Positions 4,104 through 22,004 of a stretch of 64,000 nt of DNA are shown in pieces. The notes below the pieces were generated by a model, which made no database searches, was not told where the DNA came from, and worked only from the letters and a program-made list of their open reading frames with translations. Source of the DNA: Halosolutus halophilus (GTDB taxonomy: Archaea; Halobacteriota; Halobacteria; Halobacteriales; Natrialbaceae). The stretch covers positions 1,054,001 through 1,118,000 of the forward strand of contig NZ_CP094974.1 in assembly GCF_022869805.1 (NCBI RefSeq). The letters run 5' to 3'. Every line of letters starts with the position of its first letter. The stretch's first letter is position 1. The translations under genes and the position numbers were made by a program.

Positions 4104-4294
4104 CGGCGATTCGAGTTCGTCGGACCGAACCGATTGACGGTCCCCGATCGTTAAAAGCGATTCCGCGGACGGAGTACCCAACTCGAGTCGGGGTGTGAGG
4201 TAGTCAGCTCCGTCCCGAAAGATGGGGGCTTTCTGCTTACAGCGCTGTGATGCGGGGATATCGTTATAGGGAATCAAGTGATGTGTTATCACGA

Positions 4295-5548
4295 ATGCAT
4301 CCGCGTACGTTCTGGGTACTCGATGATGATGACCAACCTATTGTCGACGACCTCGCCGTCGGACTTGGACGAACGACTGCGCGGGTGCTCACGTACTTGC
4401 TGTTACGGGCAAACAAGGAGGACGAACCCGCGACGACCATTCAGTTACAGGTCGGCACGGAACTGAGTCGGTCGGTGATCAGCGACACGCTTCGACGACT
4501 CGAGGAACGCCAGTTGATCGAGCGAACGGCGCTCAGGGACAACGCGCAGGGTCGGCCCCCGTCGGCGTGGCGCCCCAATGGTGATCTCGCCTGGAGTCGT
4601 CGAAACGCGTACGAGTACCACGCGTCGACGCTCCTCGACCTGGCAGAGACGATCTTTACGGACCGACCGTCGGACCCGAATCCGGACCCGAAAGCGCATC
4701 TCACGGTCGCGTTGAACTGGCGTCCGAACGGACTTCACGTCCCCTTCTACGCAGCATCAGAGTGGTACGACGAGTACGACATCGACGTCGAACTCGACCA
4801 TTTCGAGGGGTCGTTTCGTGCGGTCGAGCGAGTCCATTCTGGCGAGGCGGATATCGCTCTCGCCGGGGCTGCAACGGTTCTCAGGGCCAGAGCGGCGGGG
4901 ATGCCGATCGTACCGATCGCTGTTCTCTACCAGCGTGCGATGGCGGTACTGTATACTGTTCGCGACGTGTTCGAAACGGAACTTCGGAGCGTCGATCAGC
5001 TACAAGGCCGGCGGATCGGAATGGCACCCCACTCCGAGACGGGGATACTCGGCCGCCTGTTCATCTCGCAGACGGCACTCGAGGGTGATATCGAGATAGA
5101 CGAAACGACTGGCGAAGAACGCGAGACGTTGCTGACCGGACGCGCTGACGTCGTGACCGGGTCGATAACCGATCCGAGACTGCTAGAGCGACGAGGAAAG
5201 ACGGTCGATACGTTACTTCTCACCGACCACTTCCCGATCTATGGGCCGACGATCGTCGTTTCCGAACGATCGCTGCGAACTCGGCGCCCGGACCTGAAAT
5301 CGTTTCTCGCCGGGACAGCAGGAGGCTGGGCGGACGCGAACAGGGATCCCGAGCCGGCAGCGAAGCGCATTTCCGAAATCGGGGAAGACGAGCCAGTACG
5401 GATTCGAGAAACGTTCGAACGGGCGACAGCGGAATTCAGTCAGAGCGACGATACTCGCGAACACGGGTGGGGATGGCAGTGCGAGCGAACGTGGGACAGG
5501 CTGCGAACGGCCCTCGACCAAGGAGGACTGCTCACCGACGAGCTATGA
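4295..5548 (+). CDS. HTH - NMT1/THI5-like substrate-binding domain fusion
   Basis: A 417-residue cytoplasmic protein. Residues ~1-95 are a winged helix (VLTYLLLRANKE, SRSVISDTLRRLEERQLI) of MarR/TrmB type. Residues ~128-400 are a periplasmic-binding-protein type II domain of the NMT1/THI5 group, opening VALNWRPNGLHVPFYAAS and continuing ADIALAGAATVLRARAAGMP. There is no signal peptide, so the binding domain must sense a ligand inside the cell. A TTATAG box about 28 bases upstream of ATG 4295 fits a leaderless start. The stop overlaps the start of the ABC ATPase (CTATGA), so this is probably the sensor-regulator of the transporter operon. The ligand is unknown. Confidence 0.8.
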   Translation: MHPRTFWVLDDDDQPIVDDLAVGLGRTTARVLTYLLLRANKEDEPATTIQLQVGTELSRSVISDTLRRLEERQLIERTALRDNAQGRPPSAWRPNGDLAWSRRNAYEYHASTLLDLAETIFTDRPSDPNPDPKAHLTVALNWRPNGLHVPFYAASEWYDEYDIDVELDHFEGSFRAVERVHSGEADIALAGAATVLRARAAGMPIVPIAVLYQRAMAVLYTVRDVFETELRSVDQLQGRRIGMAPHSETGILGRLFISQTALEGDIEIDETTGEERETLLTGRADVVTGSITDPRLLERRGKTVDTLLLTDHFPIYGPTIVVSERSLRTRRPDLKSFLAGTAGGWADANRDPEPAAKRISEIGEDEPVRIRETFERATAEFSQSDDTREHGWGWQCERTWDRLRTALDQGGLLTDEL

Positions 5549-6300
5549 TCGAACTCGAAGACCTCACGGTGCGGTTCGACGATTTCACCGCGATCACGGA
5601 CATCGATTTGCGGATCGACCGCGGCGAGTTCGTCACCCTCGTCGGTCCTTCCGGCTGCGGGAAGACGACCGCTCTGCGTGCGATGGCGGGACTCCAGAAG
5701 CCGACGGACGGCTGCGTTCACATCGACGGTCGGCCACCCGCGAGCGCTCAGGAGCGCGGTGACGTCGGGTTCGTGTTTCAACAGCACACGCTGCTGCCGT
5801 GGAAGAGCGCCATCGAGAACGTCGTGTTCCTTCGGCAGATGGCGGACAAAGACCCCGATCGCGAAGGGGCGCGCACGTTACTCCGATCGATGGGGCTCGA
5901 CGGATTCGAGGACGCCCGGCCGAGCGAGCTCTCGGGCGGGATGAGACAGCGAGTCGCGATCGCTCGGACGATCCACCTCGGCGCGGACGTGTTGCTGATG
6001 GACGAGCCGTTCGGGGAACTCGACGAGATCACCCGTGACGAACTCGGCGTCGAGATCCGATCGCTCTGGCGGCGCGAGCGGAAGACGATCGTTTTCGTCA
6101 CCCACAGCGTTCCCGAGGCGGTTTTCCTCGGCGACCGGTGTGTGGTGATGCGGGACAGTCCCGGACGAATCGCGGCGACGTTCGATGTCGACCTCTCCGA
6201 ACCGCGCGACACGGAGGTTTTTGGCTCTCGAGCATTTCAGGAACAGGTCGCGGCGGTGCGCCGGACGCTCTACGAAAGCGACGAGCGCGAGACGACATGA
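5545..6300 (+). CDS. ABC transporter ATPase (nitrate/sulfonate/taurine type)
   Basis: A 251-residue ATPase of the SsuB/TauB group. It has Walker A GPSGCGKTT (residues ~34-42), Q-loop FQQHTLLPW, signature LSGGMRQR, Walker B VLLMDEPF and the switch His in VTHSVPEAV. It energises uptake of a small organic solute. It is coupled by start-stop overlaps to the HTH-binding-domain gene upstream and to a permease downstream. This is the only ATPase in the cluster, so it presumably serves both permeases. Confidence 0.9.
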   Translation: MIELEDLTVRFDDFTAITDIDLRIDRGEFVTLVGPSGCGKTTALRAMAGLQKPTDGCVHIDGRPPASAQERGDVGFVFQQHTLLPWKSAIENVVFLRQMADKDPDREGARTLLRSMGLDGFEDARPSELSGGMRQRVAIARTIHLGADVLLMDEPFGELDEITRDELGVEIRSLWRRERKTIVFVTHSVPEAVFLGDRCVVMRDSPGRIAATFDVDLSEPRDTEVFGSRAFQEQVAAVRRTLYESDERETT

Positions 6301-7085
6301 ACGAACGAATCCGTTTCGACGCGTCCGACGCGGTGTATCCGGCGAGCGCGCTCTGCGTCGGCGTCGCACTCTGGTGGCTGATCACGCTGGTGACCGACGT
6401 TCCGCCGTTCGTGCTCCCGCCACCCGACGCCGTCGTCGCGCGGCTGGTCGACAATCCACGGCTATACCTCGCCAACGCCTGGCACACCCTCGAGAAGATC
6501 GTCTACGGTGGATCCGTCGGGATCGCATCCGGAATCACCCTCGCGGTTTTCGTCACATACGTCCCGTGGTTCCGCCGGGCCGTGTACCCGTACCTCGTCA
6601 CCATTCGGGTGCTACCAAAACTCGCGATCGCGCCGCTGTTGCTCATCTACTTGGGGACGGGAACCGCGACCGCGATCGTCTTCGTCGCACTCGTCACGTT
6701 TTTTCCGCTCGTGTTGAGTACGGCAGCGGGGCTCGAACGCGCGCCGCCGGCATATCACGAACTGTTGCAATCGGTGAACGCGGGACCGCTCGAGCGGATC
6801 CTGTACGTCGACGTTCCGTATGCGATCCCCGACTTATTCGCGGGACTCAAGCAGTCAGTGACCCTCGCCGTCGTCGGCGCGGTCGTTGCGGAGTGGGTCG
6901 TCTCGGACAGCGGACTGGGATTTCTCATCCTTCTGGGGTCGGAGACCGTTCGACCGGACGTGATGCTCGCCGCCCTGCTCATCCTGTTACTCGAGGGACT
7001 CGCGCTGTACGGGGCGGTCGTCCTGGCTCAACGCGGCGTGTACGATCGGCTCAACCTGGACGTGGAGGCCGGCAGACCTGACTGA
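6297..7085 (+). CDS. ABC transporter permease (SsuC/TauC type)
   Basis: A 262-residue permease with about six membrane segments and the cytoplasmic EAA-type loop (ELLQSVNAGPLERILYVDVP, residues ~157-176), which docks on the ATPase. It starts at the ATGA overlap with the ATPase stop. It is the last gene of the plus-strand operon. The convergent permease at 7105-8049 begins 20 bases beyond its end. Confidence 0.88.
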   Translation: MNERIRFDASDAVYPASALCVGVALWWLITLVTDVPPFVLPPPDAVVARLVDNPRLYLANAWHTLEKIVYGGSVGIASGITLAVFVTYVPWFRRAVYPYLVTIRVLPKLAIAPLLLIYLGTGTATAIVFVALVTFFPLVLSTAAGLERAPPAYHELLQSVNAGPLERILYVDVPYAIPDLFAGLKQSVTLAVVGAVVAEWVVSDSGLGFLILLGSETVRPDVMLAALLILLLEGLALYGAVVLAQRGVYDRLNLDVEAGRPD

Positions 7086-7104
7086 CGCTCATTTCACGGA
7101 CGTC

Positions 7105-8049
7105 TCAGGGTTGCCAGAGCGCGCGCTCGATCACGACCGGGACGAGGTAGAACCCGATCCCGAGCAGCGAGAGAACGACGAGGGCGGCATAGGTCTCGGC
7201 AGTTCGGAGGTAGGTCGACGTCTCGAACACCCGATAGCCGAGGCCAGCATCGAGCGTGACGAACTCCGTGACGACGGCCCCAATGACGCTCAGCGTCGCC
7301 GCGATTTTGACGCCGGCGAAGATGCTCGACGCAGCCGCGGGAACGCGAACGTGGAGGAAGACCGCGGTCTTCGACGCGTCGATCGTCTCCATCATCTCGA
7401 GATACCGCTCCGGGGTCTCTCGGAGCCCGTCGAGGGTCGCGATCGTGATCGGAAAGACCGTCAACGTCGCGACGACGAGGGCGCGCGCGGGCAGGCCACG
7501 TCCGAACCAGAGAAACAGCAGTGGTGCGATGGCGATCACCGGGGCGATTCGCAACGCGACCACGTATGGGAGGACCGTCCCCATCGCCTTTCGCGAGTGC
7601 ATCATCGCGAAGGCGAGCGTCGCCCCCACGACACTGCCCAAGACGAGTCCCGTGCCGGCGGTCGCACTCGTGACGGCGGCGTCCCCCAGCAACGTCGGAT
7701 ACGTCTCGAGGAGGCGGGCTCCGACCTCGATCGGCGACGGGAGGACGACCGACGGAATACCGTAGCGGACGACGGCGCCGTGCCACGCCGCGAAGAGTAA
7801 GACGAACACGATCGCTGGTGGGAACGCTCCGCTCACGAGTTCGCGCGCGGGAGCTGTAGAACCGTCGACGGCGTCCTCGCTGATCGAGTGCATCGCGCCT
7901 TGTCGGCGCTCGCGTTCGTCGGGGCTCCCGTCGATCGAGGATCGATCGGCTGGAGCCGAGGCCCGTGAAGGTCGCTGGGACGTCGACAGCGATGCTGCTG
8001 GCGACGTCGACGGCGTTTGCTTCGCGTCCGAGAGTCCGTCGTTGGTCAC
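7105..8049 (-). CDS. ABC transporter permease, second copy with long N-terminal tail
   Basis: A 314-residue permease of the same family as 6297-7085. About 70 polar residues rich in Ser, Asp and Arg precede the first membrane segment (PPAIVFVLLFAAWHG). The EAA loop is YLEMMETIDASKTAVFLHVRVP. It starts at a GTG that overlaps the stop of the binding-protein gene (GTGA at 8046-8049), so the two are translationally coupled. It has no ATPase of its own and probably uses the product of 5545-6300, perhaps as a heterodimer with the other permease. Confidence 0.85.
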   Translation of the reverse strand: MTNDGLSDAKQTPSTSPAASLSTSQRPSRASAPADRSSIDGSPDERERRQGAMHSISEDAVDGSTAPARELVSGAFPPAIVFVLLFAAWHGAVVRYGIPSVVLPSPIEVGARLLETYPTLLGDAAVTSATAGTGLVLGSVVGATLAFAMMHSRKAMGTVLPYVVALRIAPVIAIAPLLFLWFGRGLPARALVVATLTVFPITIATLDGLRETPERYLEMMETIDASKTAVFLHVRVPAAASSIFAGVKIAATLSVIGAVVTEFVTLDAGLGYRVFETSTYLRTAETYAALVVLSLLGIGFYLVPVVIERALWQP

Positions 8050-9104
8050 GTATCCGTCTCGATTCGTTCGGCGAAATCCGAGACGTACTCGGAGTCGCCG
8101 AGGTAGTCGTTCGTCCACACCGAGTCGGGGTCGACGTCGTTCTCGAGGACCCCGGCGTCAGCGAGGATGTCGTTCGTTTCCGTCCACGGTTCCGAATCGC
8201 TTGCACCCCATCCCTCGGCTTCGACGGTCTCGGAGATCAGGTAGCCCGTGTACATCCGCTCCCACTTGCCGGCCTGATTCTCCCGCACCTCCTCGAGTTC
8301 AGGTTGGACGTCCACGAGCTGATCGATCGCTTCGTCGGGGTTCTCGACCGCCCACGCAGCACCTTTGGCGGTCGCCCGGAGAAACCCGGAAACTGCGTCG
8401 GGGTTCTCCTCGGCGAAGCTTCGGTCGGTCGCGACGAGGTGGCCGTAGGAGGGGATGGCCGATTCGATCTCGAGGACGTCGATTTCGCCGCCTTGCTGGT
8501 TCGCGTCGACGACGTCGCTGAACACGCCGCCAGCGGCGCCGATATTCCCGTTGAGCAACTGTTGAACGGTGTCGAACCCCGAGTCGACGTACTCGATGCT
8601 GTCCAACACGCCGTGGTGAGCGAGAAACGCTTCCGTCATCATCCGGACCATCCCCGGGCCACTTCCAACAGTCGCTCCTTCGAGGTCCTCGGGATCGTCG
8701 AGTTCGCCGAAGGCATTTCGATCGGCGAAGACGACGTTGGGGTTCCGTTGCATCACGACCCCGACGGCGACGGGCGAGAGGTCCTTGGCGTTGACGGTCA
8801 GGATCTGATCGGCGCTCGAGATGGCGAATTCGACGTTACCGAGTCCCGCCTGGTTCGCCGCGAAGTCGGCTCCGTCGCCGCTTTCGAACTCGACGTTTGC
8901 GACCCCCTCCTCCTCGTAAAACCCGTTCTCGCGAGCGGCGACGTAGGGAACATGCAGGCCGCTCATGTTCCAGTTGAGCAACAGCGTCGCCGATCCGATC
9001 CCCTCTCCCGAACCGGCGCCTCCAAAGCGTCCGATGCACCCGGACACGGCAATCCCGCCGCCGAGCGCCAAGACCCCTCGACGCGTACAGTGCGTGGTAT
9101 TCAC
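8046..9104 (-). CDS. Tat-exported lipoprotein, NMT1/THI5-like substrate-binding protein
   Basis: A 352-residue ABC solute receptor. The N-terminus RRGVLALGGGIAVSGC has the twin-arginine motif and a lipobox Cys, so it should be exported folded and lipid-anchored outside the membrane. The mature domain opens with ATLLLNWNMSGLHVPYVAARENGFYEEEG and has the GNVEFAISSADQIL signature of the family. It is the only exported member of five binding-protein-fold proteins in this cluster. Its promoter carries the 18-bp element shared with the operon at 12516. Confidence 0.88.
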   Translation of the reverse strand: MNTTHCTRRGVLALGGGIAVSGCIGRFGGAGSGEGIGSATLLLNWNMSGLHVPYVAARENGFYEEEGVANVEFESGDGADFAANQAGLGNVEFAISSADQILTVNAKDLSPVAVGVVMQRNPNVVFADRNAFGELDDPEDLEGATVGSGPGMVRMMTEAFLAHHGVLDSIEYVDSGFDTVQQLLNGNIGAAGGVFSDVVDANQQGGEIDVLEIESAIPSYGHLVATDRSFAEENPDAVSGFLRATAKGAAWAVENPDEAIDQLVDVQPELEEVRENQAGKWERMYTGYLISETVEAEGWGASDSEPWTETNDILADAGVLENDVDPDSVWTNDYLGDSEYVSDFAERIETDT

Positions 9105-9213: not shown

Positions 9214-9645
9214 TCACGTGACGTCATGCGTCAGCAGCGGCCGGTCACGCTCCTCGATCGGCGGCTCGTATGTGACCACTTCTAGCAGGTTTCCGTCCGG
9301 ATCGAGGAAGTAGAACCCCTCGAACTCGCCCCAGTCGTACGGCCCCTGGTTCGGGAACTGGCCGTCGAGTTCGTCGACGAACGCATCGTAGCTCGATCGG
9401 CCGGTCTCGAACGCGAGGTGCGCTTTGTCCAGCGGGTGCTCGAGATCGACGGGATTCCACCCATCGGCTCGTCCCGTCTCGACGAGCGTGAGGACGGTGT
9501 CACCGACCTCGAACATAGCGTGTTCACCAGCAAAGTCCGAAGGCGGACGACGGACCGTTAGCTCGAGGACGTCCCGGTAGAACGCGTACGCGGATTCGAG
9601 ATCGTTCACGTCGACGTTTACGTGATCGATTGCGCGCATCGTCAT
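9214..9645 (-). CDS. VOC (glyoxalase/dioxygenase) superfamily protein
   Basis: A 143-residue vicinal-oxygen-chelate protein. It opens with RAIDHVNVDVNDLESAYAFYRDVLEL, where His is the first metal ligand, and ends in GFYFLDPDGNLLEVVTYE, where Glu is the last ligand. Such proteins are metal-dependent dioxygenases, isomerases or lyases; the substrate is not readable. Its ATG overlaps the stop of the binding-protein-like gene 9642-10607 (ATGA), so it is the fourth gene of that operon. Confidence 0.82.
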   Translation of the reverse strand: MTMRAIDHVNVDVNDLESAYAFYRDVLELTVRRPPSDFAGEHAMFEVGDTVLTLVETGRADGWNPVDLEHPLDKAHLAFETGRSSYDAFVDELDGQFPNQGPYDWGEFEGFYFLDPDGNLLEVVTYEPPIEERDRPLLTHDVT

Positions 9646-10607
9646 AGCGATGCGTGATCGGCGTACTCGCGGACGATCGGGGCGTCCGGGTCGAGGTAGT
9701 CGTTCGTCCAGGCGGCGTCCGGATTGATCGTGCCGTCCAGCAGGCCGGTCTCGGAGAGCGTTTCGCCGAGCCGTCGCCATCGGTTCCCGTCATGGTTCCC
9801 CCAGCCGGCCGTCTCGACGTGAGGTGAAAACTGGAGGTCACGAGCGGCTGTCTCGAACTTTTGTTGTTCGATCTCCCGGCGGCGCTCGAGCGTGGCGTTA
9901 CGCGAGATCAGCGCGTCGACAGCGGCCGCCGGATCGGCGGTCGCCTCGGCCCACCCGCGTGCGGTCGCCCGGAGGAACGACCGCACCGTCTCGGGGTCAT
10001 CGGCTGCAAATTCTGGATTCGTCACGAGGGTCATCCCGTAGACGTGCAGGTGGTCCCCGATCGGGAGTTCGTCTGCGATTCGGTCGTGTTCGTGTTCCAG
10101 TTCGAGGCCGTTGGTGACGACGCCGACGGCCGCGTCGACCGATCCGTCGCGGACCTGGTGCTGGACTCGATGGTGGGTGTGGGGATCGACCTCGAGCAGG
10201 TCGACCTCGTCGGCGATTCCGACGTCCTCGAGGAGCTGGGCGGTCAGAATCCGCGTCTTGGTCGCGGAGGGGGCGACCGTGCGGCCGGCGAGCTGCTCGG
10301 GTCGCTCGAGGGGCTCGCCGAAGACGTCCCGCAGGGTGTAGATCGCTGCCGGCGTCTTCGCGGTCACCGCCGCGACGGCCAGCGGCTCGAGGCCGCTGCT
10401 CTGGATCGAGAGGACGGCGCTCGCGCCGGCGAGGGCGAAGTCACCCTCGCCGCGGGCCGCCTGTTCGGCGGCGAACGGGGAGCCGTGGCCTTCCTCGAAG
10501 GCCACGTCGAGACCTTCATCCTCGTAGAGGCCCCGCTCGCGGGCGAGGAAGTACGGCGCCTGGAACCCGTTCGGTTCCCAGTTGAGTTGGAACGTGACGG
10601 TATTCAT
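9642..10607 (-). CDS. NMT1/THI5-like binding-protein-fold protein without signal peptide (1)
   Basis: A 321-residue protein that begins directly with the binding fold (VTFQLNWEPNGFQAPYFLAR) and has no export signal. It has the ALAGASAVL signature of solute receptors and a final AAWTNDYLD motif also seen in the exported receptor. The Cys-rich motif of yeast Thi5 is absent, so an HMP-P synthase role is not supported. ATG 10607 is chosen because GGAGGTG precedes it by 8 bases; GTG 10616 overlaps the previous stop. It could be a cytoplasmic sensor or chaperone, or an enzyme of this fold. Confidence 0.82.
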   Translation of the reverse strand: MNTVTFQLNWEPNGFQAPYFLARERGLYEDEGLDVAFEEGHGSPFAAEQAARGEGDFALAGASAVLSIQSSGLEPLAVAAVTAKTPAAIYTLRDVFGEPLERPEQLAGRTVAPSATKTRILTAQLLEDVGIADEVDLLEVDPHTHHRVQHQVRDGSVDAAVGVVTNGLELEHEHDRIADELPIGDHLHVYGMTLVTNPEFAADDPETVRSFLRATARGWAEATADPAAAVDALISRNATLERRREIEQQKFETAARDLQFSPHVETAGWGNHDGNRWRRLGETLSETGLLDGTINPDAAWTNDYLDPDAPIVREYADHASL

Positions 10608-10612
10608 ACTGA

Positions 10613-11614
10613 TCACACCTCCAGCCGGAACAGTCCGTCGGGGATGTGATCAACGCCGAGAGCGTCGGGTCCAGCGACGTCGAGCAGATGGTCGAACAGC
10701 CGGTTCATTCCCGCGATTGTCTCCTCGTCCCAGTCGGCGACGACCATGTCCCGCCAGCCGTCGCGAACGGCGCGGACGACCGAAGGATCGTTTTCGTACA
10801 TCAACCGCTCGCCGATAACCTCCCAGAGGTCGTCGTCGATCGTCAGTCGGTCGACGGCGTCGCGGTATGCGCCTTTGAACCCGCGGACGGCCTCGGGGTT
10901 TTCCGAGAGGTACGTCTCGCTCGTCAGGAACGTCGAGATCGGGAGCTTCCGGTCGGTACCCGACAGGTCCTGTACGAGACGCGACATGGGTAGCACCTCC
11001 CGGTAGTCGCCCGTTTCGGTGATCTCGGGGACGATCGGCCAGAACTGGAGGATCGCGTCGACCTCGCTGTCGCGCAGCATTCGAGTGAGTTCCACCTTCG
11101 AGCCCGACTCGACCGGCGTCGCCTCGTCGTCGGGATCGAATCCGTGGCGGTTCCGACACGCGGCGCGCACCAGGATCCAGTTCTTGTCGAGACGACGGAC
11201 GACGCCGACTCGACGGTTGCGGAGGTCCGTCAGCTTCTCTATCGGCGAGTCAGTCGGCGCGACGAGCCCGCCAACCGTTCGCCCGTAGGGATGGACAGCC
11301 ACAATCGGTGCCCCTTCGGCCCGTTCGCGTGCCGTCGAGATGTAGTCGATGTCGATGAGGTCGGCGTCGCCCTCTTGTAGTTTCGCCTCGACGGTCTCGA
11401 CCCCTCCCTCGAGTTCGTCCGAAACGAGTTCGACGTCAAGGTGGAAGCCGTGCTCGTGGTCGAGCCCGAGCCGTTTGATGGTGTAGAGCATGTACCGGGG
11501 ACTCCCGTTGTGCTCGAACCGGGCCCGGAGAACGGGCCGATTGCCGGGCCCGTCGTGGTGGGCGTCCAGTTCGGCCTGCTGGCTCTCGATGTCGACAGTA
11601 GTGGTTCCTGCCAT
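10613..11614 (-). CDS. NMT1/THI5-like binding-protein-fold protein without signal peptide (2)
   Basis: A 333-residue protein with an N-terminal extension of about 25 polar residues and no hydrophobic segment. The core shows LKQEG-like switching elements (EAKLQEGDADLIDIDYIS), RVGVVRRLDKNWILV and VDAILQFWPIVPEITE. It resembles the PBP type II fold group that includes 4,5-dihydroxyphthalate decarboxylase as well as transport receptors, but the reaction cannot be read from sequence. It lies 5 bases after 11620-12516 and 5 bases before 9642-10607. Confidence 0.75.
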   Translation of the reverse strand: MAGTTTVDIESQQAELDAHHDGPGNRPVLRARFEHNGSPRYMLYTIKRLGLDHEHGFHLDVELVSDELEGGVETVEAKLQEGDADLIDIDYISTARERAEGAPIVAVHPYGRTVGGLVAPTDSPIEKLTDLRNRRVGVVRRLDKNWILVRAACRNRHGFDPDDEATPVESGSKVELTRMLRDSEVDAILQFWPIVPEITETGDYREVLPMSRLVQDLSGTDRKLPISTFLTSETYLSENPEAVRGFKGAYRDAVDRLTIDDDLWEVIGERLMYENDPSVVRAVRDGWRDMVVADWDEETIAGMNRLFDHLLDVAGPDALGVDHIPDGLFRLEV

Positions 11615-11619
11615 CCGGA

Positions 11620-12516
11620 TCACCCCAGCGAGGCAACGATGGCGTCGATCTCCGCGTCGCCGTCGATCAGCTCGCGATCTTTCATCCACTCCAGTTGGGC
11701 GCCGAGGTCGGCCCGATCGGCGAACTCCGGCACCTCGTAGCGCGGTACCGTGACGCGCTCTCTGAGTGCCGCCATGTCGACGTCCTCGAAGAGGTCGGGG
11801 GCGACGCGGGCGTCCTTCTCGAGCATCTCGAGGTACTCGTCGCGGAACGCCTCGGGATTTTCGTTGATGTCGCGGGCGGCGCGGGCGTAGGCCGCGACGT
11901 AGGCGTCGACGATCTCCGAGTCGGTGCCGTCGCCGCCGACGATCCCCACGTGGTTCTCGAACTCGAGGACGGGTTCGAAGCCGAGCTGCTCGGCCAGCGT
12001 GGACTGCGGATCGAGCAGGGTGATCGCGTCGACCTCGCCGTCCCGCAGCGCCCGCAGCCGGTCGGTCGGCATCCCGTAGTGGACGAGTTGCACGTCCGCC
12101 GGATCGACGTGTTCCTCGAGCGCTCGCATCGCGGTGTACTCCTGGCCGGTCCGTCTGTTGACGGCGACGTCGACGCCGGCCAGGTCGGCCGGGTCGTCTA
12201 TCGGCGTCTCCGGTCGGATGAACACCGTATAGGGCTGCTCGGTGAAGGTACCGTTAGCGACGATCCGTCCGTCACCCATCTCCCAGGTCCGTTTGAGACT
12301 CTCCCACTTGCAGACGGGGTACAGATCGACCTCGTAATCCTCCGTTAGCGTTTCCTCCGCGGGGATATACTTCAGTTCCACGGTGCGTCGATCCCGCTCG
12401 ACTAGTTCGGCTTCGATCCCTTCCGCCTCGAAGTACCCGCGCTCGGCCGCCACCCGCTGTGGAAGCACGAACGAGAACGGAAGGTGGAACAGCCGGAGTG
12501 TGTTATCCTCTGGCAT
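11620..12516 (-). CDS. NMT1/THI5-like binding-protein-fold protein without signal peptide (3)
   Basis: A 298-residue first gene of the operon. It opens LRLFHLPFSFVLPQRVAAERGYFEAEGIEAEL, a clear binding-fold start, with no signal peptide. It contains DPADLAGVDVAVNRRTGQEYTAMRALEEH and GEVDAITLLDPQ. ATG 12516 sits about 28 bases downstream of the TATA part of the shared element at 12532-12549, consistent with a leaderless start. It may act in the cytoplasm with the next two proteins. Confidence 0.75.
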   Translation of the reverse strand: MPEDNTLRLFHLPFSFVLPQRVAAERGYFEAEGIEAELVERDRRTVELKYIPAEETLTEDYEVDLYPVCKWESLKRTWEMGDGRIVANGTFTEQPYTVFIRPETPIDDPADLAGVDVAVNRRTGQEYTAMRALEEHVDPADVQLVHYGMPTDRLRALRDGEVDAITLLDPQSTLAEQLGFEPVLEFENHVGIVGGDGTDSEIVDAYVAAYARAARDINENPEAFRDEYLEMLEKDARVAPDLFEDVDMAALRERVTVPRYEVPEFADRADLGAQLEWMKDRELIDGDAEIDAIVASLG

Positions 12517-12531
12517 ACAGGTCGCAGTAAT

Positions 12532-12549
12532 CACGAAGGGACGTATAAA
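12532..12549 (-). promoter_or_regulatory. Shared TATA/operator element, copy 2
   Basis: Read on the minus strand it is TTTATACGTCCCTTCGTG. It differs at only two positions from the element at 9125-9142. It supplies the TATA box for the four-gene operon starting at 12516, with a candidate repressor site just downstream. A separate AATATTTATG box near 12561-12570 probably drives the divergent cupin gene. Confidence 0.55.
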
Positions 12550-12607
12550 GGTTTCTCGCGAATATTTATGAGAGGCGTTGGTGATTGGTAACACTAGGTA
12601 CGGTACT

Positions 12608-12985
12608 ATGGAGAGAACGAATACCAGTGACGCGTCGTACGAGGAGGTCAGCGACGGCGTGTACCTCGCCGACCTCGCGATGGGTCGGCGAGCGAGCGTA
12701 AAGTCCTGGCGCATCGAGCCGGGGGCGACGTTACCGGTCCATCGACACCACAACGAACAGATCGGGTACGTTCTCAGCGGGACATTGGTTGCACTGACCG
12801 AAGACCAGAAAATCACGCTCTCGCCGGGGGATTGTTATCGGTTTCCGAGTCAGGAGCTACACGGCGCAGAGAACCGATCCACAGAACCGGCCGTCGGAAT
12901 TGGCGTCCTCGCTCCGCCGCGGGAACAGCCCGACTGGGGCGACGTGGGGGTCACCGACGCGTTCCCCGACAGGACCCAGCGCTGA
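12608..12985 (+). CDS. Cupin domain protein
   Basis: A 125-residue single-domain cupin. Motif 1 is PVHRHHNEQIGYVLSGTL (His, His, Glu metal ligands, residues ~43-60) and motif 2 is LSPGDCYRFPSQELHGAEN (last His). It is probably a metal-binding enzyme or small-molecule sensor in the cytoplasm. It is transcribed divergently from the binding-protein-like operon and lies upstream of the quinoprotein pair. Confidence 0.8.
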   Translation: MERTNTSDASYEEVSDGVYLADLAMGRRASVKSWRIEPGATLPVHRHHNEQIGYVLSGTLVALTEDQKITLSPGDCYRFPSQELHGAENRSTEPAVGIGVLAPPREQPDWGDVGVTDAFPDRTQR

Positions 12986-13247: not shown

Positions 13248-14150
13248 ATGACGACAGCACACATTACTGACGAAGCACAGCGACAGCTCGCGCGCACGCT
13301 CGACGTCGAACGGGTCGGTGACGGTGACCGTCTGACCATCGACCGGCTGCGCGAAGCGGTCGACGAGACGGACGATCCCGCGTTCGCTTCGATGGGCGAA
13401 GCGATCCGCAGCGACCTCTCGGGGAAACTGGACGCCGAGTTGCTCGAGACAGAACTGGAGCGGCTGTCGACACAACTCGAGCGCCTGTCCGAGGTCCGCG
13501 AGCAGGGGATTCCGGACGGCGAGACCGAGCCGGAGGAACTCTACCGCGAACTCGTCGAGCCGGGCTGGAAGATCTACGACCACCTCGTCGACGTCGACTT
13601 CTTCGAGAGCCTCGAGGCGAACCTCCCGCGGTTCACGTCGGAGCACATCGAGGGGACGGCCCACGAACTGATCGGCTCCGACGAGCTAACGGACGGTCTC
13701 GAGCGACTCGGATTCGACGAACAAGAGCGGATTGCGCTCGTCATGGACGTGACCAACAACAACGACCGGCTCGCCCGGTGGGTACCGACGAAAGAGATCC
13801 CCTCGGAAGTCGAGTTCGACGTCGACCACGTTCCGCCGCTACACCAGCGGGCGGCGGGCGGCGTCTTGTTGTGGATCAACGCGCTCGACGTCCATCTCTG
13901 GCAGAATCGAATTCTCATCACCGACGAGATCCTCGACGACGGCTACTGGGACATCAAGGCGATGCTGGGTGGCTTCCACCTGCTGGCGAAGGCAGCGCTC
14001 GAGATCACGCGCGAGGACGGGTTGACCGACTCCCAGCTAACCGCCGCGATTACAGCCGGAGCGGCGATCATGATCGTCAACCAGGAAGAGATCTGCAAGA
14101 ACGTGTTCTGGATCACGGACGAAATGCGAGCACCACCGAAAGCGAGGTAA
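13248..14150 (+). CDS. Unknown protein paired with the quinoprotein dehydrogenase
   Basis: A 300-residue protein I do not recognise. Residues ~30-90 are strongly helical and charged (LLETELERLSTQLERLSEVREQ). The C-terminal half has a Trp- and His-rich block (DHVPPLHQRAAGGVLLWINALDVHLWQNR) and a weakly hydrophobic helix (LTAAITAGAAIMIVN). No signal peptide or membrane segment is seen. It ends 6 bases before the PQQ dehydrogenase and in the same frame, so the two are separated only by TAA and two codons. This pairing suggests a partner subunit, a PQQ or metal chaperone, or an electron acceptor. Confidence 0.75.
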   Translation: MTTAHITDEAQRQLARTLDVERVGDGDRLTIDRLREAVDETDDPAFASMGEAIRSDLSGKLDAELLETELERLSTQLERLSEVREQGIPDGETEPEELYRELVEPGWKIYDHLVDVDFFESLEANLPRFTSEHIEGTAHELIGSDELTDGLERLGFDEQERIALVMDVTNNNDRLARWVPTKEIPSEVEFDVDHVPPLHQRAAGGVLLWINALDVHLWQNRILITDEILDDGYWDIKAMLGGFHLLAKAALEITREDGLTDSQLTAAITAGAAIMIVNQEEICKNVFWITDEMRAPPKAR

Positions 14151-14156
14151 TCACCA

Positions 14157-15875
14157 ATGTCACTCGAAGAAGATAGGGCCGTACAGGCCGCAAAGGATAC
14201 GATCGTTAGAGAAACTGACCAGGGGTATCGCGTCCTCGGCTCCCCCGATAAGTCGGTCACGCACCAGCACGACGTCGACCGCATCGAGGAGTTCGACGTC
14301 ACCGACGAGATGATTCGCGAGTCGGGCGACAATCCGGAAGCCTGGCTCACATACGGGGGGAACTACGAGCAGCATCGCTGTACGACCGCCGACGTCATCA
14401 CACCCGAAAACGTCGAAGACCTGGACCTCGAGTACACGATGAACGTCGGGGCCGGTTCGAGCATGGAGGGAACGCCGCTGATCGTGCCCGGCGATCCGCC
14501 GATCATGTACCAGTCGAACGGGCCGAATCACGCCAAGGCGATCGACGCTCGGGAAGGCGAGGTTCTCTGGAGTTACACCTACGCGGTTCCTTCCGACGTC
14601 GTACTGTGCTGTGACGATAACAATCGGGGTGTCGCGATCTCCGGCGACAAGGTGTTCATGACGACGCTCGATTCCGGCGTCGTCGCGCTGAACCGCTATA
14701 CCGGCGAAGAGGAGTGGTACACGTCCACCGCCGACCACGAGTCCGGCTACTCGGCCACGTGGGCACCCGTCGTCTACGACGGGATGCTCTTTACAGGCAG
14801 CGCCGGCGGCGAGTACGGCGTCCGAGGCTTCCACACCGCTCTCGACATCGAGACGGGCGAGGAGCTCTGGCACACCTGGACCTCGCCCGAAGAAGAGTGG
14901 GTCGGCGACAGCATCAACCAGTCCTGTGCGACGAACTGGATGACCGCGACTGTCGACACCGAGAAACGGCGACTCTACTTGCCGATCGGCAACCCCGGCC
15001 CGGACTTCGACGGCTCCGTCCGGCCAGGTCCAAACCGCAACAGCGCGAGCACGCTGGCGCTCGACATGGACACCGGCGAGCGCCTCTGGTGTCACCAGGA
15101 GGTCGCCCACGACGTCTGGGACTACGACTCCGCGAATCCGCGCATGCTCATCCGCGATCTCGAGATCGAACATCGCAACACGACGACCGACGTCGTGGTG
15201 GACGCGGGCAAAACGGCGTGGGTCTATACGATGGACGCAGACACCGGCGAACTCATAGAGCGGAGTGAACCGGGCGTCCAGCAGCTGAACATGTACCGGA
15301 TGATCCCGCACATCGACGAGGGCCGGCGCATGCCGTTCATGCCCGGAGCGATGGGCGGCAACGACTGGCAGCCGGCCGCGTACAACCCCGAGACCGGTCT
15401 CGCGTACTTCAAGATGAACAATTCGCCCCAGGAAGCCTGGTGGCGCTTCGAGGAGTACGAGGAGGGCAAGAAGTACTGGGGCGGCATCTTAGAGGACGAG
15501 ATCGAGGCCGTCCCCGACGGCTACAACGGCCACATGAGTTCCATCGCGGCGATCAACCCGGAAACGGGCGAGCGCGTCTGGCGCGACTGGATCGACAGCG
15601 AAGCCTACATCTGGGGTGGCATGATGACGACTGAGACCGGCGTCGTCTTCACCGGTACCCAGAATGGGGACTTCATCGCCTACGACGGCGAGTCCGGCGA
15701 GCGACTCTGGGAGTACGATCTCGGCGAACCGTCTATCGCCAGCAGCCCGATGAGCTGGTACGATCCCGGCACCGAGAAGCAGTACGTCGCGGTCCAGATC
15801 GGGGGGAGCGGCTGGCTCCGGCGCGGTCCCGGCGGACGCGACGATCGTCTGGCCGTCTTCTCGATGGAGGCGTAG
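14157..15875 (+). CDS. PQQ-dependent alcohol dehydrogenase with lanthanide-type active site, no signal peptide
   Basis: A 572-residue eight-bladed quinoprotein of the methanol/ethanol dehydrogenase family. Visible active-site parts are Glu104 (MEGTPL), the vicinal disulfide Cys151-Cys152, Arg157, metal ligand Glu219 in GSAGGEYGVRG, the Trp261 platform, metal ligand Asn279 (GNPGP) and the catalytic Asp322 in HDVWDYD. Asp324, two residues on, is the extra ligand that distinguishes lanthanide enzymes (XoxF, ExaF) from calcium MxaF, which has Ala there. Family members act outside the membrane, yet this protein starts MSLEEDRAVQAAKD and an in-frame TAA lies 6 bases upstream, so no longer N-terminus exists. 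No cytochrome or pqq synthesis gene is nearby. Confidence 0.88.
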   Translation: MSLEEDRAVQAAKDTIVRETDQGYRVLGSPDKSVTHQHDVDRIEEFDVTDEMIRESGDNPEAWLTYGGNYEQHRCTTADVITPENVEDLDLEYTMNVGAGSSMEGTPLIVPGDPPIMYQSNGPNHAKAIDAREGEVLWSYTYAVPSDVVLCCDDNNRGVAISGDKVFMTTLDSGVVALNRYTGEEEWYTSTADHESGYSATWAPVVYDGMLFTGSAGGEYGVRGFHTALDIETGEELWHTWTSPEEEWVGDSINQSCATNWMTATVDTEKRRLYLPIGNPGPDFDGSVRPGPNRNSASTLALDMDTGERLWCHQEVAHDVWDYDSANPRMLIRDLEIEHRNTTTDVVVDAGKTAWVYTMDADTGELIERSEPGVQQLNMYRMIPHIDEGRRMPFMPGAMGGNDWQPAAYNPETGLAYFKMNNSPQEAWWRFEEYEEGKKYWGGILEDEIEAVPDGYNGHMSSIAAINPETGERVWRDWIDSEAYIWGGMMTTETGVVFTGTQNGDFIAYDGESGERLWEYDLGEPSIASSPMSWYDPGTEKQYVAVQIGGSGWLRRGPGGRDDRLAVFSMEA

Positions 15876-16319: not shown

Positions 16320-17060
16320 ATGAACTACAAGTACAGGTATCGACTCCGACCGTCCGACGCTCCCGTCGAACAGTTAGCGTGGACTGTCGATACCTGTAGG
16401 CAGGTCTACAACCACTTTCTCCACCGACTCAATCGGGACGCCGACACCTCGGCATACTCCGAGGAGAAACTTCTGCCCGACCTCAAGAAGTAACGGACCG
16501 ACCTGAAACGCGTTCACTCAAAGGTACTACAGAAGGTCGTACAGTGGCTGTACGACGACCTTTCGACGCACCGTGGTCGAAAAGAGAACGGCTACCGCGC
16601 CGGCCCCCTGAAGTGGAAAGCGCCAGGCGAGTACCGCAGTTTCACCCACCGTCGATCCGGCTTCAAACTCGAGAACACGAGTGGCCGGACGCGACTGGGG
16701 CTCTCAAAACTCGGTGAAATCCCCATCACGTTCCACCGTGATCTCCCCGACGAAGCGAGCATCAAGACCGTCACGGTCAAACAGGAACCACTCCTGTCCT
16801 GCTTGCGGGTTTGAGGCGGACAGGGACGCGAACGCGGTCGTCAGACTACGTCTGACGGGCAGCAAAATCGCTACGCGATTTTGCGACGGCGTGGAACATT
16901 CTTTCTCGCGGCATCGAGAAGCGGTTAGGAGCAGGACGCTCCGGATCAACGCCCTCAGAATCGCTCTGCGATTCTAATTGGCTGCGAAAATCCGCTTTGC
17001 GATTTCGAACGCCTGTCGAGACTGCGCTCCCTGTGGATACACCTGTATCTGCAAAGTCCG
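16320..17060 (+). pseudogene. tnpB: tnpB pseudogene
   Basis: The N-terminal ~170 residues are readable (YRYRLRPSDAPVEQLAWTVD, CRQVYNHFLHRL) but carry an in-frame TAA at 16491-16493. The reading then jumps from IKTVTVKQE directly to CPACGFEADRDANAV, which is the C-terminal zinc finger and last RuvC aspartate, in another frame. The RuvC-I and RuvC-II part, about 150-200 residues, is missing. Palindromes replace the usual C-terminus. It cannot make a nuclease. Confidence 0.8.
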
Positions 17061-19117: not shown

Positions 19118-19600
19118 CTACACCTCTCGCACGCCGATGACGCGATCCTGCAGGTAATCCAGGTGCATCGCGTTGTAGATGAGTTTCACTTCGTCGCTCA
19201 TCGGGACCGCCTGGCAGGTGAGAACGATTCTCCTCTCTTCGACCTCTTCGTCGGTGAGAATGAGATCCATGTCCATCGAGAGTTCGCCCTCGTACACGAT
19301 CCCGGCACAGTTCGCACACGAGGCGGCGCGACACTCGAACGGCCACTCGTAGCCCTGATCTTCCGCGGCATCGAGAACGTACCGCCGCCCCTGGACTTCG
19401 ACCATCCCGTGATCGGTGTCGTCGAGGTCGGCTTCCGCCGCCTTTTCGAAGAGGTCCTCGTCGTCGATGTCCCAGCCGTGCTCGTCCAGTACCTCAAAGT
19501 TAAGATATTCGACCGTTCGAACGGGACCGCTGTCACCGTCGCTGCCATTGCCCTCCTCGGCGTCCTCGCCGAGTCGGACGTTGGGAAGGCCGTAAGACAT
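19118..19600 (-). CDS. 2Fe-2S ferredoxin, halophilic plant type
   Basis: A 160-residue ferredoxin of the halobacterial type. It has an acidic hyper-variable insert ([21 protein letters not shown]) and the cluster ligands CRAASCANC (residues ~89-97) with the fourth Cys in IVLTCQA. The C-terminus [13 protein letters not shown] is conserved in this group. It carries electrons in the cytoplasm. About 25 residues rich in Gly, Asp and Glu precede the usual start, so a shorter N-terminus is possible. Confidence 0.88.
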
Positions 19601-19669: not shown

Positions 19670-21910
19670 TCACTCGCGGTCGAACTCGGTGAAGGGGCCG
19701 ATCCTTCCTTCGCGCCTGTCGATCCCGTCCGGCGGCTCCCGATCGGCCGCTTCCAGGGCCCGTTCGAAGTGCGTACCCGTCAATTCGATCGCTTCGACCG
19801 CGGCCCCCCGTTCGTGACCGTCTCGGTCGTCGATTTCGGGGGTCCCTTCGGTCGACTCCTCGACGTATTCGCGGACGGCGTTCATCGCCGCGTCGCGGCA
19901 AATTCTTTCGACATCGGAGCCGACGAACCCGTCGGTTCGAGCGGCGAGCGCGTCAATGTCTACGTCCGGAGCGAGCGGCCGATCGCGGAGGTGTATCTCG
20001 AAAATGTCCCGACGCGCCGCTTCGTCGGGCGCGTCGACGGCGACGTGTCGTTCGAACCGGCCCGCGCGGAGCAACGCGTCGTCGATGCGTTCCGGCCGGT
20101 TGGTCGTCGCGATGACGACGACGTCCTCCAGGTCCTCGAGTCCGTCGAGTTCGCTGCACAACTGTGAGACCACGCGCTCGCCGACGTCCGCCTCCCCGGC
20201 CCCGCCCCGCGTTCCGGCGATGGCGTCGATCTCGTCGAACACCAGGACGGCGGGCGCGTTCTCCCGGGCCTTGCTGAACACCCTCCGAACGCCCCGTTCC
20301 GATTCGCCGACGTACTTGTCGATGAGTTCGGGCCCCTCGATCGAGATGTAGTTCGACCGCGCCTCGTTGGCGACCGCCCGCGTCAGCAGCGTCTTCCCGG
20401 TGCCCGGCGGCCCGTAGAGGAGAACGCCCGTCGCCGGCGGTAGCGAGACCCGCTCGAAGGCGTCGGGGTACTCGAGCGGCCACTGCACGGCCTCCCGGAG
20501 CGTCCGTTTCGCCTCCGAGAGGCCACCGACGTCCGCCCACCCGACGTCGGGGACCTCGACGAGCACCTCCCGCATCGCGGAGGGGGCGATCCCGCGCAGC
20601 GCCGTTTCGACGTCGGCGTCGACGATTTCGACGGCCCCCGGTTTCTCACCCGGGTCCTCGGCGTCGCCACGCACCCGCCGCAGCGCGCCCATCGCGCTCT
20701 CCCTGATGAGGTTCTCGAGGTCGGCTCCGACGAAGCCGTGCGTGTCCTCGGCGTAGCGCTCGAGGTCGACGTCGTCGCCCAGCGGGACGTCCCGTGCGTG
20801 AATGCGAAGGATCTCCGCGCGCTCGTCGGCATCGGGAACGCCGATCTCGATCTCGCGATCGAACCGCCCCGGCCGGCGGAGTGCGGGATCGACGGCGTCG
20901 ACCCGGTTGGTCGTTCCCACGACGACGACCTGCCCCCGGTCGTCCGCGCCGTCGAGCAACGCCAGGAGCTGGGCGACGATGCGGCGTTCCACGTCACCGG
21001 AGACGTCCTCGCGTTTCGGCGCGATCGCGTCGAGTTCGTCGATGAACACGATGGCGGGCGCCTCCGCCGCGGCCTCCTCGAAGACGTCGCGGAGGCGCTC
21101 CTCGCTCTCGCCGTAGTACTTCGAGACGATCTCCGGCCCGGACAGCGCTTGAAAGTGCGCTCCGACCTCGTTCGCCATCGCTCGCGCGATCAGCGTCTTC
21201 CCGGTTCCCGGCGGCCCGGAGAGGAGCACCCCCGTCGGCGGATCGACGCCGAGTCGATCGAAGAGGTCCGGGTGGCGCACCGGTAACTCGATGACTTCCC
21301 GAACCCGCTCGAGTTCGTCGTCGAGGCCGCCGATATCGTCGTACGTGACGCTCGCGGTCGACGACGCGCCGCGGTCGTCGCCGCTCGACACCGCCGCCGG
21401 GTCCGGCGAGACGACGATCGAGGTCCACTCCTCGACGCGGACGTACTCGGCCGGATCGACGTCGACGATTTCGATCGGCACGTGCCGCGTCGATTCGGTC
21501 GCGTCCGCCTCGTCGGCGACCGGGACCGTCGTCGTCCGGCCGCTCGAGAGGACGCGACCGACCAGCGCGTCTCGCTGCGAGAGCGCGAGCGCCTCGTCCG
21601 GCCGCACGTCGTCGGGCAACGCGATCTCGATCCGTTCGGCCGATCGGACGTCGACCGGGTCGACGACGACGGGCTCGCCAGCGGTGACGTCGATCGTCTC
21701 GGCGAGCTCGGGCACGAGTCGGATCGTCCGATCGCCGGTCTCTTCCGACGGGCGGGCCGTCACCTGGGTGACGGTGGACTCGTCGCTCGGCCCCTCGAGG
21801 ACGACGTAGTCGCCCGACTCGAGGCCGAGTTCGGCCATCGTGTCCCGTTCGACGATGGCCGTCGTCTCCCCCGATCGATTCGCGACGAGTGGTTTGACCG
21901 TGAGTTTCAT
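19670..21910 (-). CDS. CDC48/VAT-type AAA+ ATPase
   Basis: A 746-residue protein with an N-terminal double-psi barrel domain (residues ~1-180) and two AAA modules. Walker A GPPGTGKT occurs twice (~residues 246 and 515), with Walker [11 protein letters not shown] and VLVFDEIDA and TTNR sensor motifs in both. It unfolds protein substrates for the proteasome in archaea. The length is normal. The paralog is shorter at the C-terminus than classic CDC48 and ends in an acidic tail. It is transcribed alone, 69 bases upstream of the ferredoxin gene. Confidence 0.92.
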
Positions 21911-22004
21911 TGACGCAATAGTCGTTTGGTAACGTGTCACGGTCGGAAGCAAGAACGTTTGGGTCGATTCCTCGAGCGCTACCGCCGGCAGGACTTCGAC
22001 GGGC

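Follow-up and report, generated by a model that had tools for sequence, protein, structure and literature searches.

A haloarchaeal PQQ-type alcohol dehydrogenase encoded with a helical partner, a putative Tat escort whose signal has been lost in one clade

Introduction

To our knowledge, the characterised PQQ alcohol dehydrogenases carry signal peptides of their own and meet PQQ outside the membrane. The window analysed here, a stretch of 64,000 nucleotides from the haloarchaeon Halosolutus halophilus, contains a gene of this type for which no export signal could be recognised. The locus therefore raises the question of how such an enzyme would reach the outside of the cell, or whether it does so at all. 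Three features, read on the same strand, frame the question.

13248-14150, plus strand: 300-aa escort subunit, all-helical and without a match in Pfam, NCBIfam or the PDB; Tat signal present in deep-branching relatives and lost here (QRQLARTLDVERVGDGD)
14151-14156, plus strand: intergenic gap of six bases, from the escort stop codon to the dehydrogenase start
14157-15875, plus strand: PQQ-type alcohol dehydrogenase with a propeller fold and a D322-x-D324 metal site, without export signal

Results

The dehydrogenase is an intact quinoprotein with a D-x-D metal site

The open reading frame at 14157-15875 is intact, starts with ATG and encodes 572 amino acids. The protein belongs to PF01011 (1.4e-56; 192.9 bits against a cut-off of 26.7). 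It matched TIGR03075 with 374 bits, less than the cut-off of 480, and its second-best NCBIfam match was TIGR04528, the acido-empty-quinoprotein family, with 247 bits (cut-off 650). All residues named in the original prediction (E104, C151-C152, R157, E219, W261, N279, D322, Y323 and D324) were found at the positions claimed, and the cofactor and metal ligands E, N, D, R and W are all present. HMMER alignments to solved structures placed the WDYD of the dehydrogenase on the WDFD of PedH (6zcv) and the WDYD of XoxF (4mae, 6dam), which aligns Asp322 and Asp324 with the metal site, and the GNP of the enzyme aligned with that of solved quinoproteins. Residues R157, E219, W261, N279, D322, D324 and K352 are invariant among 21 haloarchaeal homologues. 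When the comparison was widened to 26 diverse rows, including two from bacteria, R157, W261, N279, D322 and D324 were still invariant, and E219 was replaced by D in six rows and by Y in two.

The AF2 model of the dehydrogenase (pLDDT 82.5) had lanthanide PedH as its best structural match (E 3.4e-41), followed by further quinoproteins including Eu-MDH 6fkw and XoxF 4mae. The dN/dS against relatives is about 0.12-0.19, indicating purifying selection. The earlier identification as a quinoprotein alcohol dehydrogenase holds. With PedH/ExaF and XoxF the enzyme shares the fold (6zcv, 6fkw, 4mae), the D-x-D motif, the Glu and Asn ligands, the Cys-Cys pair and the Arg; it differs from them in its identity of only ~25-30%, in a separate escort in place of a signal peptide of its own, in a genome without PqqC, and in Lys352, which by alignment occupies the position of MDH Arg331, as in quinohemoprotein alcohol dehydrogenases.

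D-x-D is required in lanthanide enzymes. The motif had been put forward as a lanthanide hallmark; D322-Y-D324 is indeed present and invariant in the 26 rows, but the hallmark reading was overstated, for the same motif is reported in the E. coli membrane glucose dehydrogenase and in most glucose dehydrogenases (PMC11996626). The motif is compatible with Ln3+ and leaves room for Ca2+, so that lanthanide use is a prediction. A search of the literature on haloarchaeal PQQ dehydrogenases found nothing specific.

No member of the haloarchaeal family carries its own signal

The claim that the dehydrogenase has no export signal held up. Six bases upstream of the start lies an in-frame TAA that ends the preceding gene, and close relatives share the N-terminus from residue 1 onwards; a missed start or an upstream signal is ruled out on these grounds. 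The six-base gap precludes a longer N-terminus and shows that the two genes form a tight operon. The enzyme thus departs from the XoxF/ExaF class, whose members bear their own export signal and are periplasmic. The missing signal is true of the window gene but not peculiar to it: in each of the 62 distinct haloarchaeal loci the dehydrogenase was free of an RR motif and of a hydrophobic N-terminal stretch. On inspection, both bacterial enzymes used as outgroup have ordinary Sec signals.

An uncharacterised helical protein accompanies the dehydrogenase

A homologue of the upstream protein, which we call the escort, lies directly upstream of the dehydrogenase in all 62 distinct haloarchaeal loci after removal of duplicates, with gaps of -4 to 79 bp. 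The first locus set gave the same arrangement in 20 loci, three escort copies that were absent from the ORF map being recovered by tblastn. When loci were chosen by the escort alone, the dehydrogenase followed it in 22 of 22 named haloarchaeal loci. Genome G193 carries fragments of both genes side by side, suggesting that the two decayed together. A phylum-wide sample of 393 genomes, covering lineages outside the class, had the escort in seven, all in the window's own order, and an occurrence outside the class was rejected accordingly.

The predicted structure of the escort is confidently all-helical (pLDDT 90.5, pTM 0.91). Pfam and NCBIfam profile searches with the window escort gave no match, nor did a Foldseek search of the PDB (best E 0.29). 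Among 21 escort members no Pfam family was matched, including PF13618 (gluconate 2-dehydrogenase subunit 3) at E up to 5. The absence of PDB and Pfam matches led us to reject the escort as a PqqC/TENA protein or as a gluconate-2-dehydrogenase subunit 3.

The escort bears a twin-arginine motif in the deep-branching loci

A twin-arginine signal (RRxFLKALGVGGAVAAGG) was present on the escort in 24 of the 62 loci, including all of the deepest branches. These escorts begin with RRx[F/L]L and a neutral hydrophobic core, as in DERREFLKALGVGGAVAAGGATLDG (L113) and DEDRREFLKALGVVAGGGVAGATL (L117). Pfam TAT_signal matched 15 of 25 diverse escorts (best E 8e-4) and TIGR01409 matched 16 of the 25 (best E 2e-4); the matches are individually weak, the signals being short. 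In the window escort the stretch aligned to the Tat region reads DEAQRQLARTLDVERVGDGDRL, charged residues having replaced the twin arginine and the hydrophobic core. Its N-terminus (QRQLARTLDVERVGDGD) carries no Tat signal and has no upstream start; a stop codon lies shortly upstream, which disposes of a missed signal on a longer form.

The arrangement resembles a known one. The gamma-subunit of the Burkholderia cepacia FAD-glucose dehydrogenase is a hitchhiker protein that the catalytic subunit requires for its folding and secretion (PMC6719666). Like it, the haloarchaeal escort is a helical partner that has the only Tat signal and is encoded with a signal-less catalytic subunit, and this pattern (a signal on one partner only, in the same operon) was found in 24 of the 62 loci. 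The escort differs in belonging to an unrelated family, as the lack of a PDB match, and of any Pfam family match among the 21 members, indicates. The haloarchaeal system also differs in its quinoprotein partner, its archaeal host and the loss of the signal in the window clade. The haloarchaeal dehydrogenases would therefore be without signals of their own because the signal sits, in the deep-branching members, on the upstream partner. The peculiarity of the window lineage is that the partner's signal is lost too.

Distribution of the Tat motif and the gene neighbourhood

The dehydrogenase tree comprised 64 rows and was rooted on the two bacterial enzymes, with SH-aLRT support only and some long branches. 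Two changes of Tat state are needed on it. The deepest haloarchaeal branches have the motif, so its absence is most simply a loss. One Tat-less group consists of six rows with an adjacent cupredoxin gene. The other consists of 32 rows (support 97), in which seven rows, for example L049 and L072, keep an adjacent Tat-cupredoxin, and the remaining 25 (support 99), the window among them, have no cupredoxin nearby.

Cupredoxin genes lie near the dehydrogenase in 23 loci and are fused to it in four more, 27 of the 62 in total. In the fused cases (L084, L113, L115 and L116) a cupredoxin domain forms the start of the dehydrogenase, which has no signal, and the escort has the Tat motif; in several other clades a cupredoxin gene with a Tat signal lies directly after the dehydrogenase or close to it. 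These halocyanin-type blue copper proteins, Tat-exported and in other clades encoded next to the dehydrogenase or as part of it, are absent beside the window gene, where other neighbours are found.

19118-19600, minus strand: [2Fe-2S] halobacterial ferredoxin Fer (NF041393, above cut-off)
19670-21952, minus strand: CDC48-type AAA ATPase, a neighbour in the Tat-less, cupredoxin-less clade only

Ferredoxin Fer lies within 6.5 kb of the dehydrogenase in 21 loci, all of them Tat-less and cupredoxin-less. Among the 62 loci, none with a ferredoxin (21) or AAA ATPase (21) neighbour has cupredoxin (27) or Tat (24); for ferredoxin against cupredoxin, Fisher's test gave 2e-7 over 62 loci whose rows are not independent. 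The full-length two-domain cupredoxin orthologue of the sister clade was absent from 16 genomes of the window clade, H. halophilus included, and was found in four control genomes. Other cupredoxins, of a single domain and up to 46% identical, are encoded in the H. halophilus genome.

The ferredoxin at 19118-19600 may be a candidate electron acceptor of the dehydrogenase. Reduction of an ordinary ferredoxin by a quinone of PQQ-like potential runs only uphill, which weakens the case for this role.

As separate observations, the vicinal Cys-Cys is gone from many haloarchaeal relatives with adjacent or fused cupredoxins (L060-L062 and the most distant clades) and is retained in the presumed cytoplasmic clade, the reverse of the pattern expected from compartment alone. 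A short ORF at 16681-16977 of the window, which follows closely on the dehydrogenase gene, resembles a remnant of a TnpB-type transposase (zinc ribbon CPACGFEADRDANAV).

PQQ supply and a co-occurring NMT1-type importer

The original prediction saw no PQQ synthesis locus in the window. A genome-wide search extended this result: PqqC was not found in H. halophilus, nor in any of 391 haloarchaeal genomes sampled across the class, 70 of which have the dehydrogenase, whereas the positive control, S. meliloti pSymB, was recovered with 428 bits. The PqqE profile gave only sub-cut-off matches to radical SAM proteins in the H. halophilus genome (best 106 bits against 381). Since PqqC is absent from all 391 sampled genomes, any PQQ used must come from outside. 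Upstream of the escort the window contains an importer module and an associated block.

4247-8118, no strand assigned: genes that form one importer module with the next feature, namely a MarR-NMT1 fusion (putative sensor), an ABC ATPase and two permeases in convergent orientation
8046-9104, minus strand: NMT1/THI5-type ABC substrate-binding lipoprotein (SBP) with its own Tat-like signal
9214-12985, no strand assigned: VOC protein, three signal-less NMT1-like proteins and a cupin, a block conserved near the dehydrogenase loci of several clades

Parts of the importer (4247-9104) and of the NMT1-like/VOC/cupin block recur near dehydrogenase loci in many clades, those with Tat included. Of the 391 genomes, 72 have the SBP homology group (E up to 1e-40), 70 have the dehydrogenase and 69 have both, figures that are uncorrected for phylogeny; presence and absence of the two vary together within genera. 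True SBP orthologues (> 320 bits, by our own table count) occur in 47 genomes, 45 of them with the dehydrogenase, and the genomes of the group beyond these 47 hold a protein of the 9642 type (homologue of 9642-10616). The solved structures nearest to the SBP are a ThiY-type pyrimidine binder and THI5. As a lead, the module is a candidate importer of PQQ, of another cofactor precursor or of a substrate, all of which would fit.

The gene heading the ABC importer genes, at 4247-5548, fuses a MarR-type HTH to an NMT1/THI5 ligand-binding domain and resembles a one-component sensor for the ligand of the importer. At L134 (genome G037) the NMT1-like/cupin/VOC block occurs without the dehydrogenase and adjoins two genes that, by sequence, encode putative aldehyde ferredoxin oxidoreductases. 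L132 and L133 (G090 and G280) have the SBP and permeases without the escort, and their neighbours are a Tat lipoprotein resembling a PQQ-type propeller and a plastocyanin-like gene, with a Na/Ca antiporter also at L132. In H. halophilus itself a tandem pair of Na+/Ca2+ antiporter genes lies just left of the window (C1:1051046-1053359). In 18 of the 62 loci such genes lie no more than 5.5 kb from the dehydrogenase, against a background of roughly 5-7 genes per genome, and a link to the metal of the enzyme is possible.

Discussion

We consider it probable that the locus descends from a Tat hitchhiker system, made up of escort, quinoprotein and blue-copper acceptor, which was relocated in the window clade; the gene at 14157-15875 would be the catalytic subunit of this two-gene quinoprotein system, which is specific to haloarchaea as far as sampled. 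In the ancestral system the helical escort would bind the folded dehydrogenase and, bearing the sole Tat signal, would have it exported as a hitchhiker, with electrons passing to an exported or fused cupredoxin. In the window clade the signal of the escort would have been replaced by charged residues and the cupredoxin gene lost, and both proteins would most likely remain cytoplasmic. In that compartment the dehydrogenase would use PQQ obtained from outside to oxidise an alcohol, hold its metal (Ca2+ or Ln3+) at E219/N279/D322/D324, and pass electrons to an internal acceptor, possibly the neighbouring ferredoxin.

Cytoplasmic residence of the window enzyme would be the best reading because the 25-row clade has neither Tat motif nor cupredoxin and the gene stands beside those for a [2Fe-2S] ferredoxin and an AAA ATPase. 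The seven-row sister clade is a counter-case, since its escort lacks a usable Tat signal and yet the exported cupredoxin is kept. Export could therefore continue after the escort has lost its signal, with the cupredoxin as carrier of the complex. The window-clade enzyme might likewise still be exported, riding on another Tat-signal protein encoded elsewhere. The sister clade's pairing of a Tat-less escort with an adjacent Tat-cupredoxin, the single-domain cupredoxins of the H. halophilus genome and the retained CC pair, which is typical of exported enzymes, speak for such a route. However, the loci of the 25-row clade have no conserved Tat carrier beside them, the dedicated cupredoxin orthologue is missing from the 16 genomes tested and the neighbours are cytoplasmic-type proteins, so that we regard continued export as unlikely, though worth keeping in view.

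Two further readings concern what the proteins do, and we hold both to be quite improbable. The dehydrogenase might be an empty quinoprotein that keeps the fold, binds no PQQ and serves as a sensor or structural protein. The lack of PqqC with a working control would suit this, and the sequence match to TIGR04528, the acido-empty-quinoprotein group A, is shared, but it is the weaker one, far below its cut-off, and TIGR03075 scores higher. The cofactor and metal residues are intact and invariant in the 21-row set, selection is purifying, and the NMT1-type importer module tracks the dehydrogenase gene. Slightly more doubtful still is that the upstream protein assists cofactor assembly or folding and has its RR motif by chance, the relatives not being Tat-exported. 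The modest Tat signal scores would suit this, and conservation of the remainder of the escort even where the signal is lost points to a second role. A chance motif fits poorly with the conservation, on 24 escorts from several clades, of RRx[F/L]L followed by a neutral hydrophobic core, or with the coupling of the Tat motif to cupredoxin genes or fusions.

Returning to the relocated hitchhiker system, a cytoplasmic enzyme in a cell that does not make PQQ would need PQQ uptake, for which the evidence is circumstantial. A bolder version of the proposal combines all of these elements: a cytoplasmic archaeal quinoprotein alcohol dehydrogenase that arose from a Tat-hitchhiker ancestor when the escort signal and the copper acceptor were lost, and that is supplied with PQQ by a dedicated NMT1-type ABC importer, passes its electrons to a soluble iron-sulfur protein and uses Ca2+ or a lanthanide. 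As a whole, this version seems to us speculative and unlikely.

What is new here is the explanation of the missing signal by a separate Tat escort; the lanthanide claim is still a prediction. Such an escort in the haloarchaeal family would explain how enzymes of this kind are exported folded in archaea, and this reading would give a function to an unannotated protein family. With PqqC in none of the 391 sampled genomes, the source of haloarchaeal PQQ becomes a direct question. The family also offers a natural series, from a Tat escort through a Tat-less escort with a Tat-cupredoxin to neither, along which the enzyme may have changed its compartment.
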